Assembly (NCBI GenBank): GCA_002841545.1
Contig: PGZZ01000006.1
Location: 1 to 64,000, forward strand
Reading direction: 5' to 3'
Length of the DNA stretch: 64,000 nt
DNA from: Firmicutes bacterium HGW-Firmicutes-16
GTDB lineage: Bacteria; Bacillota; Clostridia; Oscillospirales; Oscillospiraceae
Part shown: in pieces, positions 45,324 to 51,823 of the stretch
How the letters are laid out: each line of letters opens with the position of its first letter
Numbering within the stretch: position 1 is the stretch's first letter
Made by a program: the position numbers and the translations under genes
The notes under the pieces: model-generated
Databases searched by the model: none
The model's input: the letters and a program-made list of their open reading frames with translations, nothing else
Told to the model about the DNA's origin: nothing

Positions 45324-46028
45324 TCAGCGGCTGATACCGCAGCTTATAGCTTTTTTTGGGCAGCCGTCCACGCATTCGAGACACGAGATGCATTCGGTTG
45401 AGTTCAGATTGCCCGCCTTTACCATCTCGGCGACATTCAAGCTCATAGGACAGTTTTTGCTGCACTTCCCGCAGGAGACACAGGCAGCGCTGTCGGCTTT
45501 CAGCCTGAATCTTGGGATGTGCAGAAGGTCTGCAAGCTTTTCGCCTATGACCATGAAGGGAGCCATCCAGCAAAGACTGTGGCACATACCGCGCTTTCCT
45601 GTCACAAGTGAAAGCACATATATTAAGGTCATAACAAAAAAATACATGATTACCATGGGCAAATCGATTCCAACCATATAAAAGAAATCAGTTTTTAACG
45701 GCCAATGACGAACCCACAAATAGACTATGAACGAAAACCAGACGACCCAGATTATGTGCTTAAAAGCGTTTTTCCATTTGCCGTTCCAGCGCTTGTCGTT
45801 GGAAGTAGATACAAAGTCCTGTATTGCGCCGCCGGGACAAAGCCATCCGCAGAAAAGGCGGCTGCCGACAATGGAGGTGAGAAGCAGGAACCCAAAAACT
45901 ACCGAGCTTCCGTTTAATATGCCTACCGATGCCGATGCAATAATTATGTATGGGGACAAAAAGAAGAATAGAAGTGGAAACAAAAGTGCGGAGAAGGTTA
46001 GTATGCCTTTACGAATTTTTTGTCTCAT
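45324..46028 (-). CDS. Membrane 4Fe-4S protein (NapH/YccM-like)
   Basis: 234 residues from ATG 46028, overlapping the PadR stop by four bases. About four to five membrane helices. CGWLCPGGAIQD is the NapH-type motif; MCHSLCWMAPFM is a second Cys pair. Two ferredoxin clusters at the C-terminus: CVSCGKCSKNCPMS and CISCLECVDGCPKKA. The family moves electrons between quinones or flavoproteins and soluble partners. No terminal reductase is nearby, so the partner is unknown. GAGGCGAG precedes the ATG. Confidence 0.9.
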   Translation of the reverse strand: MRQKIRKGILTFSALLFPLLFFFLSPYIIIASASVGILNGSSVVFGFLLLTSIVGSRLFCGWLCPGGAIQDFVSTSNDKRWNGKWKNAFKHIIWVVWFSFIVYLWVRHWPLKTDFFYMVGIDLPMVIMYFFVMTLIYVLSLVTGKRGMCHSLCWMAPFMVIGEKLADLLHIPRFRLKADSAACVSCGKCSKNCPMSLNVAEMVKAGNLNSTECISCLECVDGCPKKAISCGISR

Positions 46029-46588
46029 TGTTTCTCGCCTCTTTCCGTTATGATTCTTTTTGCGTCCAGAGCCCAATCCCTCATCGCTGAGTAAACGTAT
46101 TTTCCGCAAAGGGCGGTCAACTCGTTGAAGGTGTGGTCTTCTCCCTGCGCTTTGAGAACGTGGAATATTTCAATATAGCCGTCCAATTCACTTACTGTCT
46201 TTTCGTTTCTCTCAATAAAATCATCCAGATGCCCGAGCAGGACTTGAGACTGGGTGTTTGTGCCGAAGGAAATCTTGAGTAGAATCTCATACCTTATTTT
46301 TTCCACGTCGGGAGCTTCCGAGAGCCATTTTTCAAGCTCTGCCCTGCCGGCTTCGGTGATGTTATAAACGATTTGCCCCCGACCGTCGCTGGATTCTAAA
46401 ATGTCTGAGCTGACCGCCAAACCTTCGCTGACAAGGGCTTTAAGCGTGGGATAAATTTGCCCGAAGCTTTCCTGCCAGAAATGGCTGTATTCAAACTCAA
46501 TGGATTTTTTAATTGAATATCCCGTTTGCGGGCAATGTGATAAAAGGCCGAGGATTACATACTTTGTTTTTCCTGTGTTTTCTTTCAT
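46025..46588 (-). CDS. PadR family transcriptional regulator
   Basis: 187 residues from ATG 46588, with GGTGGTG before it. N-terminal winged helix (about 5-85): KYVILGLLSHCPQTGYSIKK, FGQIYPTLKALVSEGLA, GRGQIVYNITEAGRAELEKWL. The C-terminal half is a helical Vir_act_alpha_C-like dimerisation domain. First gene of an operon with the membrane ferredoxin. Two 19-base palindromes just upstream (46598-46640) are its likely autoregulatory sites. Confidence 0.92.
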   Translation of the reverse strand: MKENTGKTKYVILGLLSHCPQTGYSIKKSIEFEYSHFWQESFGQIYPTLKALVSEGLAVSSDILESSDGRGQIVYNITEAGRAELEKWLSEAPDVEKIRYEILLKISFGTNTQSQVLLGHLDDFIERNEKTVSELDGYIEIFHVLKAQGEDHTFNELTALCGKYVYSAMRDWALDAKRIITERGEKQ

Positions 46589-46597
46589 AGCACCACC

Positions 46598-46640
46598 ATG
46601 TATCATTAAGATACATGGATAATATATCATAAAGATATAT
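46598..46640 (-). promoter_or_regulatory. Two tandem PadR-type operators
   Basis: ATGTATC-ATTAA-GATACAT (46598-46616) and ATATATC-ATAAA-GATATAT (46622-46640). The two palindromes share the plan AT[GA]TATC-N5-GATA[CT]AT and have centres 24 bases apart, just upstream of the PadR gene. Confidence 0.85.
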
Positions 46641-46716
46641 ATGTCAAGCTAAAAATAGCAGATAAGCTAAATATAATATTTTGCTTATCTGCTATAAAAG
46701 ATATTTTATGTGTATC

Positions 46717-47109
46717 TCAGACGTTGATTTTAAAACCCAAGTCAACTTCACTCGCAGGCTTGCCGCCGGAAACGCCCCAGTTTTCTAAAGGTGGCTCATT
46801 AATCACTATCAGAATGTCAGTCCCCTTGATAGAAAGAGCCTTTTCCAAATTATCGACTATAGCTTTATATAGTTTCTTTTTAGCCTCAAAGCTTCTGCCC
46901 TGAAAAATCGTCAGCTCAATAAAAATGAAATCATCTGATCTGTTTGATGATATTTCGAAATGATCTTTATCAAGCTCATATAGTCTTTGCATTCTATCGT
47001 AGTCAGGAATTTTCAATGCATCCACCAATGCTTGATGTACTCCATCGAGCAACGCCTTTTTATATTCAGGACTTTTTCCTTGTAGCAATTCAATTCTGAC
47101 GAGTGGCAT
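46717..47109 (-). CDS. Tautomerase family protein
   Basis: 130 residues. Pro2, which becomes the N-terminal catalytic proline after Met removal, starts PLVRIELLQG. FIELTIFQGRSFEAKKKLYKAIVDNL forms the second beta-alpha unit, giving the two-repeat 4-oxalocrotonate tautomerase design. ENWGVSGGKPASEVDLG is the conserved end of the Tautomerase_2 group. Substrate unknown. GGAGGAAATT precedes the ATG. Located 31 bases after the PhzF-like gene on the same strand. Confidence 0.88.
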   Translation of the reverse strand: MPLVRIELLQGKSPEYKKALLDGVHQALVDALKIPDYDRMQRLYELDKDHFEISSNRSDDFIFIELTIFQGRSFEAKKKLYKAIVDNLEKALSIKGTDILIVINEPPLENWGVSGGKPASEVDLGFKINV

Positions 47110-47140
47110 AATTTCCTCCTTGATTTAATACGTTCTGCTT

Positions 47141-48022
47141 TTATAAATAATATTCGCCTTGAATACGAGTAGTTGCACTTCCTCCGAATATAACCTTGTT
47201 ATCATTAAGTGATAATCTTACAGTATTGAATATTCTATCTACCCCGCCTTGCTCGATGGAAATAGCATTTCCGCTCCAAATGCCGTTTTTTAGCATGTAA
47301 TATCCAAATGCACTGTTACCCGAGCCGGTTGCGGGGTCTTCTAAATATCCAAACTTCGGCGCAAAAACTCTTGTGTGTGCGATGCTGTTTTTATCTTTTA
47401 CCTCTAATGAAAAAATTAGAATAATGTCTATTTCGTTATCCACACAGAATTCTTTTATGCTTAGTTCGTCAGGGAAAATATTAATTTCTTCTTCAAGTGT
47501 AGCTATTGGGATAATTAAGGGTCGTAATCCCGCATCAATTATATCAATCGGATAAGTGATGGAAATCGTTTTGCTGTCAATCTGCAAATATTGCGATATA
47601 ATTTGCGAATTTAGAGCCGTACCTAAATGCTTAGGCTGAGGCGCTGAAATGTATATAGCATCTTTCTCTGCAATATCGTTGAAAACTGTTAAGATACCTT
47701 TTTTGTTTGTTTGAATTACTATTTCTTTTTGGCTGAGTAGATTAGGTGTTTCTTTGATAAGGCTATACATACAAGCAATCGTGCCGTGTCCACAAAAATC
47801 TACTTCGCATTCTGACGAAAAGTAAATTAGCATATATTCGAAAGAACCTAATTTGCTGCAAAACACGACCTCGGAAACGAAACCTTTATGTTGCTTAGCA
47901 ATAGTCAGCATTTCCTCATCGGTTAATGTTTGATTATCGTTTAGATAGATACATGCCGCAGGATTACCTAAAGATTTTCCTGACGTAAATGCATCAATTT
48001 TTTTGTAGCAATATCGCTCCAC
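47141..48022 (-). CDS. PhzF family isomerase/epimerase
   Basis: 293 residues, the two-lobed diaminopimelate-epimerase fold. Conserved pieces: KIDAFTSGKSLGNPAAC, the catalytic Glu in FVSEVVFC, CEVDFCGHGTIACMYSL, and VFAPKFGYLEDPATGSGNSAFGYYM. Members isomerise small acids, as PhzF does in phenazine synthesis, but here no phenazine genes are present, so a housekeeping role is likely. AGGCTTAAAGGGTGG precedes the ATG. Followed by the tautomerase, probably one operon. Confidence 0.9.
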   Translation of the reverse strand: MERYCYKKIDAFTSGKSLGNPAACIYLNDNQTLTDEEMLTIAKQHKGFVSEVVFCSKLGSFEYMLIYFSSECEVDFCGHGTIACMYSLIKETPNLLSQKEIVIQTNKKGILTVFNDIAEKDAIYISAPQPKHLGTALNSQIISQYLQIDSKTISITYPIDIIDAGLRPLIIPIATLEEEINIFPDELSIKEFCVDNEIDIILIFSLEVKDKNSIAHTRVFAPKFGYLEDPATGSGNSAFGYYMLKNGIWSGNAISIEQGGVDRIFNTVRLSLNDNKVIFGGSATTRIQGEYYL

Positions 48023-48135
48023 CCTTTAAGCCTCCAAACAATAGATTAGTATCTCCTAGGTTAATTATACTACTGAGTTACTTATACGTCCAGATTGTAT
48101 ATACGCTAATTCTGATTAATATTTAGCATAAAATA

Positions 48136-48189
48136 TTGACAATATCCAATGTTGGATGTATAGTAATGATGTTATCCAACATTGGATAA
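48136..48189 (+). promoter_or_regulatory. PadR promoter with two operators
   Basis: Perfect TTGACA (48136-48141) and TATAGT (48159-48164), spacer 17. ATCCAA-TG-TTGGAT (48144-48157) lies within the spacer. TTATCCAA-CA-TTGGATAA (48172-48189) lies just downstream and overlaps the ribosome binding site region. Both match the third site at 48863. Confidence 0.88.
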
Positions 48190-48202
48190 AGGAGGAGCGC
48201 AT

Positions 48203-48811
48203 TTGGTTCAACTACTTATACTTTATTATCTTAGTTTAAAATCAACACATGGGTACGAGATACAAAAGTTCATACAGCTCAACCACATGGAAGAATGGAA
48301 TAGCATTCAATCCGGCTCAATTTATTACGCTATGAGCAAATTGGAAACAGAGGGGCTTATCAAGCTTGTAGGCAAGGTTGGGGGCAATGAAAAATCCAAA
48401 AAGATTTATGAGATAACCGAAGCAGGACGATATAAGTTATCCGAAATGGCTTTTCATGAGCTTGAAAAACCACTGAGCAATATTTCTTCGGAAAAATTTC
48501 TAATCTACCCAATAATAGCAAATCTAACTAAGCAGGAAATTACTATAACGATTGATAGTCATGTTTCCGACCTTCAAAATAAACTTGTACAAATTAGCGA
48601 ATGGTATGAAAAGAAACAAGGGAAAGTCACAAATATAGAGAAAGCAAGCTTCAAATTGATGAGAGAAACTGTGCAAAACCAAATTGATTGGCATAGGTCG
48701 CTCTTGGACAGTCTTGATGAAACTATTTCAGCGGTTAGCGAAATTACCGCAATTATTAAAATGGTGGACTTTTCAGCTGCTGATGATTGCAAAATGTTTC
48801 ATAATGAATGA
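48203..48811 (+). CDS. PadR family transcriptional regulator
   Basis: 202 residues using TTG 48203, five bases after AAAGGAGGAG; upstream in-frame codons lie inside the operator. N-terminal winged helix (about 1-80): LLILYYLSLKSTHGYEIQKFI, SGSIYYAMSKLETEGLIKLVG, KKIYEITEAGRYKLSE. The C-terminal part is a helical dimerisation domain. Two palindromes in its promoter and one before the next gene suggest it represses both itself and the flavin reductase gene. Confidence 0.9.
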   Translation: MVQLLILYYLSLKSTHGYEIQKFIQLNHMEEWNSIQSGSIYYAMSKLETEGLIKLVGKVGGNEKSKKIYEITEAGRYKLSEMAFHELEKPLSNISSEKFLIYPIIANLTKQEITITIDSHVSDLQNKLVQISEWYEKKQGKVTNIEKASFKLMRETVQNQIDWHRSLLDSLDETISAVSEITAIIKMVDFSAADDCKMFHNE

Positions 48812-48862
48812 AAAATAAAGCAATTCCATACCGCAAAGCGGTATGGAATATTGAAGCAACAG

Positions 48863-48878
48863 TATCCAATGTTGGATA
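48863..48878 (+). promoter_or_regulatory. Third PadR operator, before the flavin reductase gene
   Basis: TATCCAA-TG-TTGGATA, the same plan as the sites at 48144 and 48172, 16 bases before the start codon at 48894 and touching its ribosome binding site. Confidence 0.85.
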
Positions 48879-48893
48879 AGGAAAGGAACAAAA

Positions 48894-49703
48894 ATGAAAA
48901 TAGCAGTTTTGATGGGAAGTCCCCGCAAGAAAGATAGCTACAGCGTCTGCAAAGAGATTGAGAAGCAGTTGAGTTTGTATGGCGATAATATTGAATTCGA
49001 TTATATATTTCTAAATGAATTTAATATTAAGAGTTGCAAGGGATGTTGCCTTTGCTTTCAAAAAAGCGAGAGTGATTGTCCGTGCCGTGAAGATGAATTG
49101 AACAGCATAAAAGAGCGGCTTTTCTCAGCCGCTGGAGTAATTGTGGCAAGTCCTGTCTACGCATATCAAGTTACCGGTCAGCTCAAATGCTTTATCGATA
49201 GAATGTCATATCTGTTTCATAGGCAAGAAATGGTGGGAATCCCAACACTGATCGTTGTTACGACTGATGGCGGTGGCAGCAAGCAAGTATATAGGTATTT
49301 AAAGATGGCTATGTCAGGGTGGGGGATGGATGTTGTTGACAATATTCAAATAGTCTCTCCTTTGTATTTTGAAAACCGTAGCCAGCAAGGAGTATTTGAA
49401 TTTAATGAAAGATATTATAGAAGAATTAACAATAAGCTTATAAAGATTTCAACGAAATTTATTGAGCGCTTGAAATTAGCCGATAGAAAAACACCAACCA
49501 TATATGACATTTTCATGTTCAACTGTCTTAGAAGTAAAACTTATACGTCAAATGCAGATTATGAATATTGGGAGAAAAGAGGCTGGCTTAACAAGGAATA
49601 TTTCTATGAAATAAAACTGAATTTTGTAAAGAGAATATTTGGCAGGTTTATGAAAGTGCTTGTTTGCATGGCAGTCGCACGATACAGAAAGAGAATCAAC
49701 TAA
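48894..49703 (+). CDS. Flavodoxin-like NAD(P)H-dependent oxidoreductase
   Basis: 269 residues. FMN phosphate loop [15 protein letters not shown] at about 8-22, then [23 protein letters not shown], a Cys-rich stretch seen in the NADPH-dependent FMN reductase group with iron-sulfur relatives, and [23 protein letters not shown]. The C-terminal 90 residues are basic and without clear motifs. Probable quinone or xenobiotic reductase. Controlled by the PadR protein upstream, judged from the operator at 48863. GATAAGGAAAGG precedes the ATG. Confidence 0.88.
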
Positions 49704-49783
49704 GCGAAAAACTGATAACAGTATTAACTCTTCAATTCGTATCTTTGCTTCTCCAGGGTATACTAAAGACAGAAGGTGAAAAT

Positions 49784-51823
49784 ATGCAGACAAATAATCG
49801 AACTCCGAATAAATTATCAAACGAAAAATCCCCGTATCTGCTTTCCCATGCATATAACCCCGTTGAATGGTTTCCGTGGAGCGATGAAGCGTTCTCCAAA
49901 GCAAAAGCGGAGGACAAACCCATATTCCTCAGCATCGGATATAGCTGCTGCCACTGGTGTCATGTCATGGCGCACGAGTCCTTCGAGGATGACGAGGTGG
50001 CGGAAAAGCTGAATCGGAGATTTATCTCGGTAAAAGTCGACAGAGAGGAGCGTCCCGACGTGGACGCCGTTTATATGGAGGTCTGTCAGGCGCTTACAGG
50101 CTCGGGCGGCTGGCCCATGACTATCATTATGACGCCGGACAAGAAGCCCTTTTATGCAGCGACCTACCTGCCAAAAAGCTCGCGCCACGGCATGCCGGGG
50201 CTTCTTGAGCTACTGAGCGTCGTTTCGAACAGATGGAATGAGAATCGGGAGGAACTGCTTGAGAGCGGCGAGGAGATTGCGTCTTATATGCAAAGCCGTG
50301 AGTCTGCGGATTCTGGGGAAGGAGCACCCGCAAAGGAGCTAGCGCTTGCCGCGAGAGAAAGCTACTCGCGCAGCTTTGATAAAAAATGGGGAGGTTTCGG
50401 CTCTGCTCCAAAATTTCCGATGGCGCACAACCTAATATTTTTGCTTAGATTATCCGTTCTCGAGAACGATAGTGAAGCGAAGCACATTGCGGAGAGAACG
50501 CTGGAGCAAATGTATCGTGGAGGGATATTCGATCATATCGGCGGCGGCTTTTCGCGATATTCGACCGACCAAAAGTGGCTGATACCGCACTTTGAAAAAA
50601 TGCTCTATGACAACGCTCTGCTAGTCTGGGCCTATACTGAAGCTTTTTTACAGACAAAGCGCCCGTTATATCGAAGCATAGCTCGGAAAACGATAAATTA
50701 CGTCCTCACGGAACTTCGTGATCCCTCCGGCGGTTTCATGTGTGGTCAGGACGCGGACAGCGAGGGTGTTGAAGGAAAGTATTACGCCTTTGCGCTGGCG
50801 GAGATTGAGAATGTACTCGGCAAAGCTGACTCGGAATTGTTTTGCCAGCGCTTTGGGATATCCCAAAGCGGCAATTTCGAAGGAAAAAGTATCCCGAATC
50901 TGCTGAATAACGAAGACTGGGAAACGGAAGACGCTAGAATTGCAGAACTCATTGCTAAACTCTACGATTACCGAATTCACAGGACGAGCCTTAATAAGGA
51001 CGACAAAATACTGACTTCATGGAATGCGCTGATGATAGTGGCACTGGTAAAAGCAGGTTTGATTTTCAAGGATGATGAATATCTTGAAGCCGCCGTCCGA
51101 ACAGGAAAATTCATTTCCGAAAATTTAAAGGGCGGCAACGGTCATCTGAAAATTCGCTGGAAGGAAGGAGAAGCCGCAAGCGAGGGCTTGCTCGATGACT
51201 ATGCGTTTTTTGGACTGGCGCTGCTTTCGCTTTACGAGATTTCTTTTGATGAAACCTATCTTATTGAGGCTACAGAAATTGCCAAAATGATGAACGAGTT
51301 ATTCCTTGATGAGCAAAACGTCGGATATTTCATGTATTCTAGGGATGCGGAACAGCTCATCACAAGACCAAAGCCCACTTATGATGGAGCTATTCCCTCC
51401 GGAAACTCCGCGGCGGCACTTTTGCTCATTAGGCTCGCAAGACTTACTTCTGACGATAAACTAGCAAAGACTGCGGAGAAGCAGCTTGCGTTCGTATCGG
51501 CGGCAGCGAACACTCAACCATCCGCCTATGGACTTTCTCTGATTGCGCTGATGGAGGCGGAATACCCATCGGCGGAGCTTGTATGCGTGTCGGCGGAGAA
51601 CGAAACACCGACTGATCTCAAGGAGTTTATTTCCGACAGACCTTCCGGAAGTCTTTCGGTTTTGCTGAAAACACCAGACAATGCGGAAAAACTTGCAAAA
51701 GCGGCTCCGTTTTCTTCCGAATACCCCATCCCCACAAGCGGAATATTTTATTATCTGTGCCGGGGCAAAACCTGTTTTGAGCCTGTGACTGAACTCAGAA
51801 AAGTGCTAGAGATGCTTTCATAA
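49784..51823 (+). CDS. Thioredoxin-domain/DUF255 protein (YyaL, SPATA20 family)
   Basis: 679 residues from ATG 49784, preceded by AGAAGGTG. N-terminal thioredoxin-like domain (about 10-165) with [45 protein letters not shown] and [13 protein letters not shown]. The remainder is an alpha/alpha barrel (about 190-560): [68 protein letters not shown]. The family is widespread but its reaction is not settled. Not obviously in an operon with the reductase gene, which ends 80 bases upstream. Confidence 0.92.

Follow-up and report, generated by a model that had tools for sequence, protein, structure and literature searches.

A predicted PadR-reductase operon with three copies of one palindrome and a hairpin at a nearly fixed distance from the intergenic operator

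The padR-reductase locus

The window analysed here, by which is meant the whole 64-kb stretch of DNA, contains a padR gene followed on the same strand by a gene for a flavodoxin-fold reductase, and the palindrome ATCCAANNTTGGAT is found in it in three exact copies (Table 1). An earlier note on this DNA had placed ATCCAA-NN-TTGGAT in the padR promoter spacer, just after it, and 16 bases before the reductase gene, and all three copies were located exactly so. The first (operator 1) fits inside the 17-bp spacer between the -35 and -10 hexamers. The second (operator 2) begins 10 bases past the end of the -10; it closely follows the expected start site and is separated by 2 nt from the ribosome-binding site of padR. 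The third (operator 3), contained within the 16-mer TATCCAATGTTGGATA (48863-48878), lies 13 nt past an intercistronic hairpin and ends 16 nt before the ATG of the reductase gene (48894). The most likely start of padR is the TTG at 48203, which is preceded by AGGAGG; the first in-frame TTG (48182), which falls within operator 2, is disfavoured.

Table 1. Features of the padR-reductase locus (positions in the window)
Feature	Position	Strand	Remarks
padR promoter	48136..48164	+	TTGACA 48136-48141, 17-bp spacer, TATAGT 48159-48164; 11/12 consensus match, sigma-A-like
Operator 1	48144..48157	.	ATCCAATGTTGGAT; exact match; occupies padR promoter spacer; counterpart upstream of padR in 55/56 relatives
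Operator 2	48174..48187	.	ATCCAACATTGGAT (flanked: TTATCCAA-CA-TTGGATAA); exact match; 17-nt match to complement of site 3
padR	48203..48811	+	202 aa; TTG start; ribosome-binding site AGGAGG 48190-48195; PF03551, E=5e-14
Intercistronic hairpin	48823..48849	+	12-bp perfect stem, 3-nt loop; no U-tract on + strand
Operator 3	48864..48877	.	ATCCAATGTTGGAT; exact match; gap operator in 55/56 relatives
Reductase gene	48894..49703	+	flavodoxin-fold FMN reductase-like protein, 269 aa; PF03358, E=3.6e-23

Exact sites of this kind are expected from base composition 0.005 times per 64 kb and 0.22 times per genome. In the whole assembly (2.79 Mb in 22 contigs, 96.7% complete), ATCCAA-N2-TTGGAT occurs exactly three times, always at the padR-reductase locus, and the genome scan for more TATCCAA-N2-TTGGATA sites that the earlier note had suggested thus yielded no exact site beyond these. 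With one mismatch allowed, two further places are found elsewhere in the assembly, relative to four for a reversed control pattern, and with up to two mismatches the window holds four sites vs 3.3 expected, a count that is by itself unremarkable. The unusual feature of the sites in the window is therefore their exactness and clustering rather than their number at up to two mismatches; among the 24 perfect 6-N2-6 inverted repeats of the window, ATCCAA-N2-TTGGAT alone recurs. Because there is no fourth exact site in the assembly, a wider regulon in this genome was rejected, and the predicted regulon appears to comprise the padR-reductase operon only.

The padR product matches PF03551 over residues 6-80 with 52.5 bits, relative to a curated cut-off of 27. 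Its best solved relative over most of its length is B. subtilis PadR (5x11 and related entries; E=3.1e-7), in which the two tyrosines that form the helix-turn-helix signature of the family are Y20 and Y42, according to the available text of PMC6457526. These align with Y18 and Y41 here, which are invariant in 18/18 aligned relatives; the same alignment has 27 invariant columns and almost no variation within S37-K46 of the helix-turn-helix. At 202 aa (relatives reach about 240 aa), the protein also has the size and the C-terminal domain of the PadR-1 subfamily, described as about 200 residues with such a domain (available text of PMC6457526). Two other family features are different. By our reading of the alignment, a lysine lies opposite the wing leucine, L65 in the B. 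subtilis numbering (PMC6457526, same text), and the conserved DNA element is TATCCAA-N2-TTGGATA, not the operator of B. subtilis PadR or the ATGT-N8/10-ACAT inverted repeat that is usual in PadR-regulated promoters (available text of PMC3506622). As judged from sequence, membership of the PadR family is carried by the domain and the tyrosines, and not by the wing leucine or the usual operator.

The reductase scores 82 bits with PF03358 (cut-off 24), as a flavodoxin/FMN-reductase domain protein should, and an AlphaFold2 model built on an alignment of 20 homologues (mean pLDDT 89) finds its best PDB folds, by structure comparison, in SP1951 and SsuE-type FMN reductases. The 20 homologues were drawn from the 29 reductase-type loci then known; L031 (frame split), L033 (contig end), L035, L032 and the near-copies L023 and L025-L028 lie outside the alignment. 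Four cysteines, C48-X2-C51-X2-C54-X7-C62, are invariant in all 20 sequences, and their CX2CX2CX7C spacing fits the compact CX2CX2CX5-7C motif published for iron-sulfur flavoproteins (Isf; available text of PMC3164229). The protein is thus not the plain flavin reductase of the earlier note but a flavodoxin-fold protein with four invariant cysteines in the iron-sulfur-flavoprotein pattern. Flavone reductase FLR (7d38) was also matched by profile search (E=6.7e-14 over 108 positions), with its four cysteines aligned with those of the reductase. The words iron, Fe-S and Cys do not occur in the main text of the FLR paper (PMC7862272), so that the cysteines alone do not prove an Fe-S cluster, and a cluster in the reductase is a prediction from the cysteine motif. 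Isf and FLR share the flavodoxin fold with the reductase, and the family described here differs from both in a C-terminal part of about 70-90 residues that is peculiar to it.

Related loci

One scan of genome contigs returned 63 loci, 56 of which (L020-L075) are related over most of PadR; the other seven (L076-L082), which match part of PadR only, chiefly its helix-turn-helix, enter none of the counts. Of the 56, 55 have a site like TATCCAA-N2-TTGGATA no more than 150 nt upstream of padR, the remaining locus (L074) starting at a contig edge, and in 55/56 a matching site follows padR within 400 nt, the exception being L020. In resampled sequence, such sites are found at 0.64 loci upstream (at least 12/14 matches) and 0.04 loci downstream (at least 13/14). 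Gap operators were chosen by a score of at least 13/14, which makes their column conservation partly a matter of construction, and the placement statistic relative to resampled sequence is the fair test. A second upstream site, like operator 2, is present in many relatives.

The gene after padR is of two kinds. In 28/56 loci it encodes a reductase of the window's type (27 by BLAST, and L035, missed by the BLAST step, by its N-terminus; L031 and L033 are likewise counted as reductase-type), and in 28/56 it encodes an ABC ATPase and is followed by further genes (ABC exporter). On a PadR tree of 67 rows (32 reductase-type and 35 ABC-type), the two types fall on the two sides of one branch with support 94/92. 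Among loci fetched later, the ABC-type L106, L107 and L109 lack a gap site at the threshold, and no target gene was recognised at L101 and L137. The earlier note had proposed an autoregulatory PadR loop with the adjacent reductase as its target, and this prediction is well supported by the sites on both sides of padR in 55/56 loci and by the reductase in 28/56.

Several individual loci are worthy of mention. Four loci of Clostridioides difficile (L054, L060, L062 and L065) have the same PadR-operator layout with an ABC transporter downstream, and their operators are partly degenerate, with TATACAA and TATCCAA mixed. In L040 (and its copy L112), a 25-bp perfect inverted repeat in the padR-reductase gap has the operator at its centre. 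Finally, L044, from an assembly of the spirochaete Treponema, holds a reductase-type pair on a very long branch of the PadR tree, which suggests either transfer between phyla or misbinning.

Promoters and the padR-reductase gap

In the aligned padR promoters of the relatives, TTGAC(A/T) and TATAAT frame the operator, although the upstream sites were picked for this alignment with a preference for a preceding TTG, which helps the -35 columns, but not the -10, to look conserved. The best promoter score of padR is 9-12/12 in 29/29 reductase-type loci. In the padR-reductase gap, the best score was no better than that of shuffles (P 0.45 or more) in 27/28 reductase-type loci, using a scan that is limited to sigma-70-type promoters and is weak in AT-rich gaps, where it also found nothing above shuffles (P<0.05) in 28 ABC-type loci. 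The exception is L035, whose gap contains a promoter match of 10/12 (P 0.01).

Alignment of the gaps separates the two types of locus. In 18 aligned reductase-type gaps, the operator carries 1.79 bits vs 0.38 and 0.39 bits for its flanks. In the ABC-type gaps, bases at +20/+21 and +29/+30 relative to the operator are conserved as well, and a -10-like hexamer (at least 5/6) occurs in 32/35 ABC-type loci vs 23 expected; these gaps probably have promoters. After the operator of reductase-type loci, such a hexamer is seen in 9/31 vs 5.8 expected, and the distance from the end of the gap operator to the reductase ATG is 14-27 nt in 24/28 loci. At L020, the nearest relative, padR and the reductase gene are separated by 30 nt that contain no operator and no hairpin, the layout that a plain single operon would have. 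Since there is no recognisable promoter at site 3, transcription of the reductase gene probably starts at the padR promoter and meets a roadblock at site 3; the reductase-type loci would then be operons in which the gap operator acts on elongation.

The intercistronic hairpin

The hairpin stretch before operator 3 is more stable than its shuffles (z -7.3), as is the gap as a whole (z -6.4); the folded gap has two hairpins, and the palindrome itself makes up the second. No Rfam family was matched by 48823-48849 at the gathering score. An ordinary padR terminator was considered and rejected, as the + strand has no U-tract and no + strand terminator was called; the 8 nt past the stem in reductase-type loci contain, on average, 5 A and 2 T. 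Among lineages, the sequence of the hairpin varies while its fold persists.

The distance from the 3' end of the hairpin to the operator is nearly fixed: 10-17 nt in 26/26 reductase-type loci with a hairpin, and 13-15 nt in 21 of them. A hairpin was counted when z < -2. Six of the 32 reductase-type loci are uncounted: one is L020, which has no operator, and in the others no significant hairpin is present. The latter are five of the 31 reductase-type loci with a gap operator (L032, L038, L044, L046 and L053), and the hairpin is therefore not essential. In a set of 15 reductase-type loci with PadR identity <75%, all 15 fall within 10-17 nt, and the standard deviation of the hairpin-to-operator distance is 1.3 nt vs 8.1 for operator-to-ATG and 20.7 for stop-to-hairpin, the latter two each inflated by one outlier. 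None of 20,000 uniform placements, a null that treats loci as independent, was as tight as the observed spacing. At PadR identity <60%, all of 10 loci have a spacing of 12-17 nt.

The ABC-type loci have a median spacing of 14 nt, with 22/28 within 10-17 nt and a standard deviation of 3.2 in 20 non-redundant loci; the hairpin-operator spacing is thus not unique to promoterless loci. Among loci fetched after the spacing hypothesis had been formed, and counted only if they were not copies of earlier ones (L136, for example, is a near-copy of L026), 5/6 new reductase-type loci (3/3 + 2/3) and 6/7 ABC-type loci were within 10-17 nt. L125 breaks the rule at 33 nt, and a longer, branched stem in it ends, by eye, 17 nt off.

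A proposed mechanism and its alternatives

The sequence itself shows three sites, a promoter that encloses the first, a conserved layout and a hairpin with its spacing. From these we infer a scheme of PadR binding, repression, co-transcription, roadblocking, an inducer and an enzyme substrate, in which the locus would be a self-contained, ligand-responsive padR-reductase operon, autorepressed from sites 1 and 2 and roadblocked at site 3. We regard this reading as moderately probable. PadR would bind the TATCCAA-N2-TTGGATA palindrome and, because it would sit at its own promoter (site 1, between -35 and -10) and just past the start point (site 2), it would repress its own gene. The reductase would be transcribed from the padR promoter, and PadR on site 3 would present a roadblock to elongating RNA polymerase in the gap; occasional transcription of padR would renew the sensor and stop short of the reductase until an inducer removes PadR. 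The inducer, probably a small toxic aromatic or electrophile, would free PadR so that both genes are transcribed, and the flavoprotein would then reduce the inducing compound. The phenolics and antibiotics that the earlier note mentioned as signals of many PadR proteins are no more than a guess for this one.

Roadblocks by the repressors LacI, CcpA and CodY, and their release by Mfd, are described in the available text of PMC4132739 and PMC10310618. In another example, polymerase roadblocked by Gln111 halts at a defined position, 14 nt upstream of the EcoRI site (available text of PMC5499547), a figure that belongs to E. coli RNA polymerase and EcoRI and not to PadR. Because the published stop lies 14 nt upstream of the site, a polymerase stalled by PadR at operator 3 would hold the RNA 3' end at about the foot of the hairpin, and the padR message, once released, would carry a protective stem at its end. 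We put forward tentatively, as a possibility that may well prove wrong, a repressor-made 3' end, in which PadR at the promoterless gap operator stops polymerase at the hairpin foot about 14 nt upstream and the RNA is released stem-capped. If so, the repressor would set the end of its own mRNA, keeping the target off while still being renewed, and a fixed hairpin-operator spacing would be a genome-readable signature of roadblock regulation.

The main rival is that the reductase has a promoter of its own, invisible to the scan, at which PadR on site 3 blocks initiation in the ordinary way; this is possible, if on the doubtful side. The ABC-type relatives appear to be built like this, to judge from their conserved bases and their excess of -10-like hexamers, the gap of L035 has its 10/12 match, and the scan sees the sigma-70 type alone. 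Site 3 as an ordinary promoter operator was nevertheless set aside, and kept as a rival on account of the weak scan, because the aligned flanks of the reductase-type gaps have no conserved -35 or -10 pattern, -10-like hexamers past the operator are near expectation, and most operators end so close to the ATG that there is scant room for a downstream -10.

Alternatively, the gap element could work as RNA, the hairpin and palindrome tuning mRNA processing or stability, or translation of the reductase, with site 3 being no PadR operator. The two hairpins of the gap, and the fold that the first retains as its sequence changes across lineages, would be in keeping with such a role, which is nonetheless improbable: the gap palindrome is identical to the copy in the padR spacer, where a role in RNA is impossible and where 55/56 relatives have a site, and selection for a fold alone would not preserve identical bases. 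It is very improbable that the palindrome belongs to a different regulator, padR merely adjoining it. The departure from the usual ATGT/ACAT repeat would be explained, but the site accompanies padR from family to family and with either kind of downstream gene, almost every helix-turn-helix residue from S37 to K46 is invariant in the 18 aligned relatives, and the exact site is nowhere else in this genome.

Comparison with known systems

The roadblock reading would make the padR-reductase locus work like PadR-controlled detoxification operons combined with repressor roadblocks. As in LmrR/LmrCD and other PadR-controlled efflux systems, a PadR-family repressor is predicted here to act on its own gene and on an adjacent detoxification gene, and 28/56 relatives have an ABC transporter downstream of padR. 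Unlike LmrR, a PadR-2 protein of about 100 residues, the PadR described here is longer (202 aa); the operator is TATCCAA-N2-TTGGATA instead of ATGT-N8/10-ACAT (available text of PMC3506622), a flavoprotein is the target, and its operator lies in a gap without a recognisable promoter. In the roadblocks of CcpA and CodY (B. subtilis), PurR, GalR and C.Kpn2I, a DNA-bound regulator downstream of the promoter blocks elongation, as proposed here, and release by Mfd is known for some of them (available text of PMC10310618, PMC4132739 and PMC6237814). The site described here differs in lying between two genes of a putative operon, with a hairpin at a nearly fixed distance upstream. An intergenic operator paired with a fixed-distance hairpin was not found in a non-exhaustive search of the roadblock literature, in the text available for it, and a literature search for PadR with a roadblock or with an FMN reductase found nothing on such a pairing.

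The work provides a defined candidate operator for one group of PadR proteins; its strings were not found by exact-string search of the open-access literature, which most subscription papers lie outside. A further prediction is that many Clostridia have regulons of a single operon, whose target is either an ABC exporter or an iron-sulfur-type flavoprotein. The hairpin-operator spacing is the part of the finding most worth testing. If it reflects roadblocking, elongation control, which is usually found by experiment only, would become searchable in genomes.

Origin and neighbourhood

The segment from 46.4 to 49.8 kb has 34-40% G+C vs 43-57% around it, and the padR-reductase copy itself has 35% vs about 47%. 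PadR of this kind was found in one of 200 genomes of the family, its own, and not in the other 199, and the reductase in one of 11 genomes of the genus, again its own, and not in the other 10. The low G+C and the absence from the searched genus and family genomes make recent horizontal gain of the window's copy likely. A phage or plasmid origin was rejected, as there was no phage record and the 14 plasmid records were all <60% in identity; the single viral-contig match of the pattern scan sits in unrelated coding DNA and was taken as chance.

The low-G+C stretch (46400-49800) holds a tautomerase-like gene, a PhzF-like gene, padR and the reductase gene, and was possibly acquired as a block. A second PadR gene, with PF03551 and a C-terminal Vir_act_alpha_C domain, lies 1.6 kb away on the opposite strand (46025-46630, -). 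Beside its promoter (TTGACA/TATTAT) is the perfect inverted repeat ATGTATC-N5-GATACAT (46598-46616), which fits the usual ATGT/ACAT type, so that two predicted PadR circuits with different operators would stand side by side.
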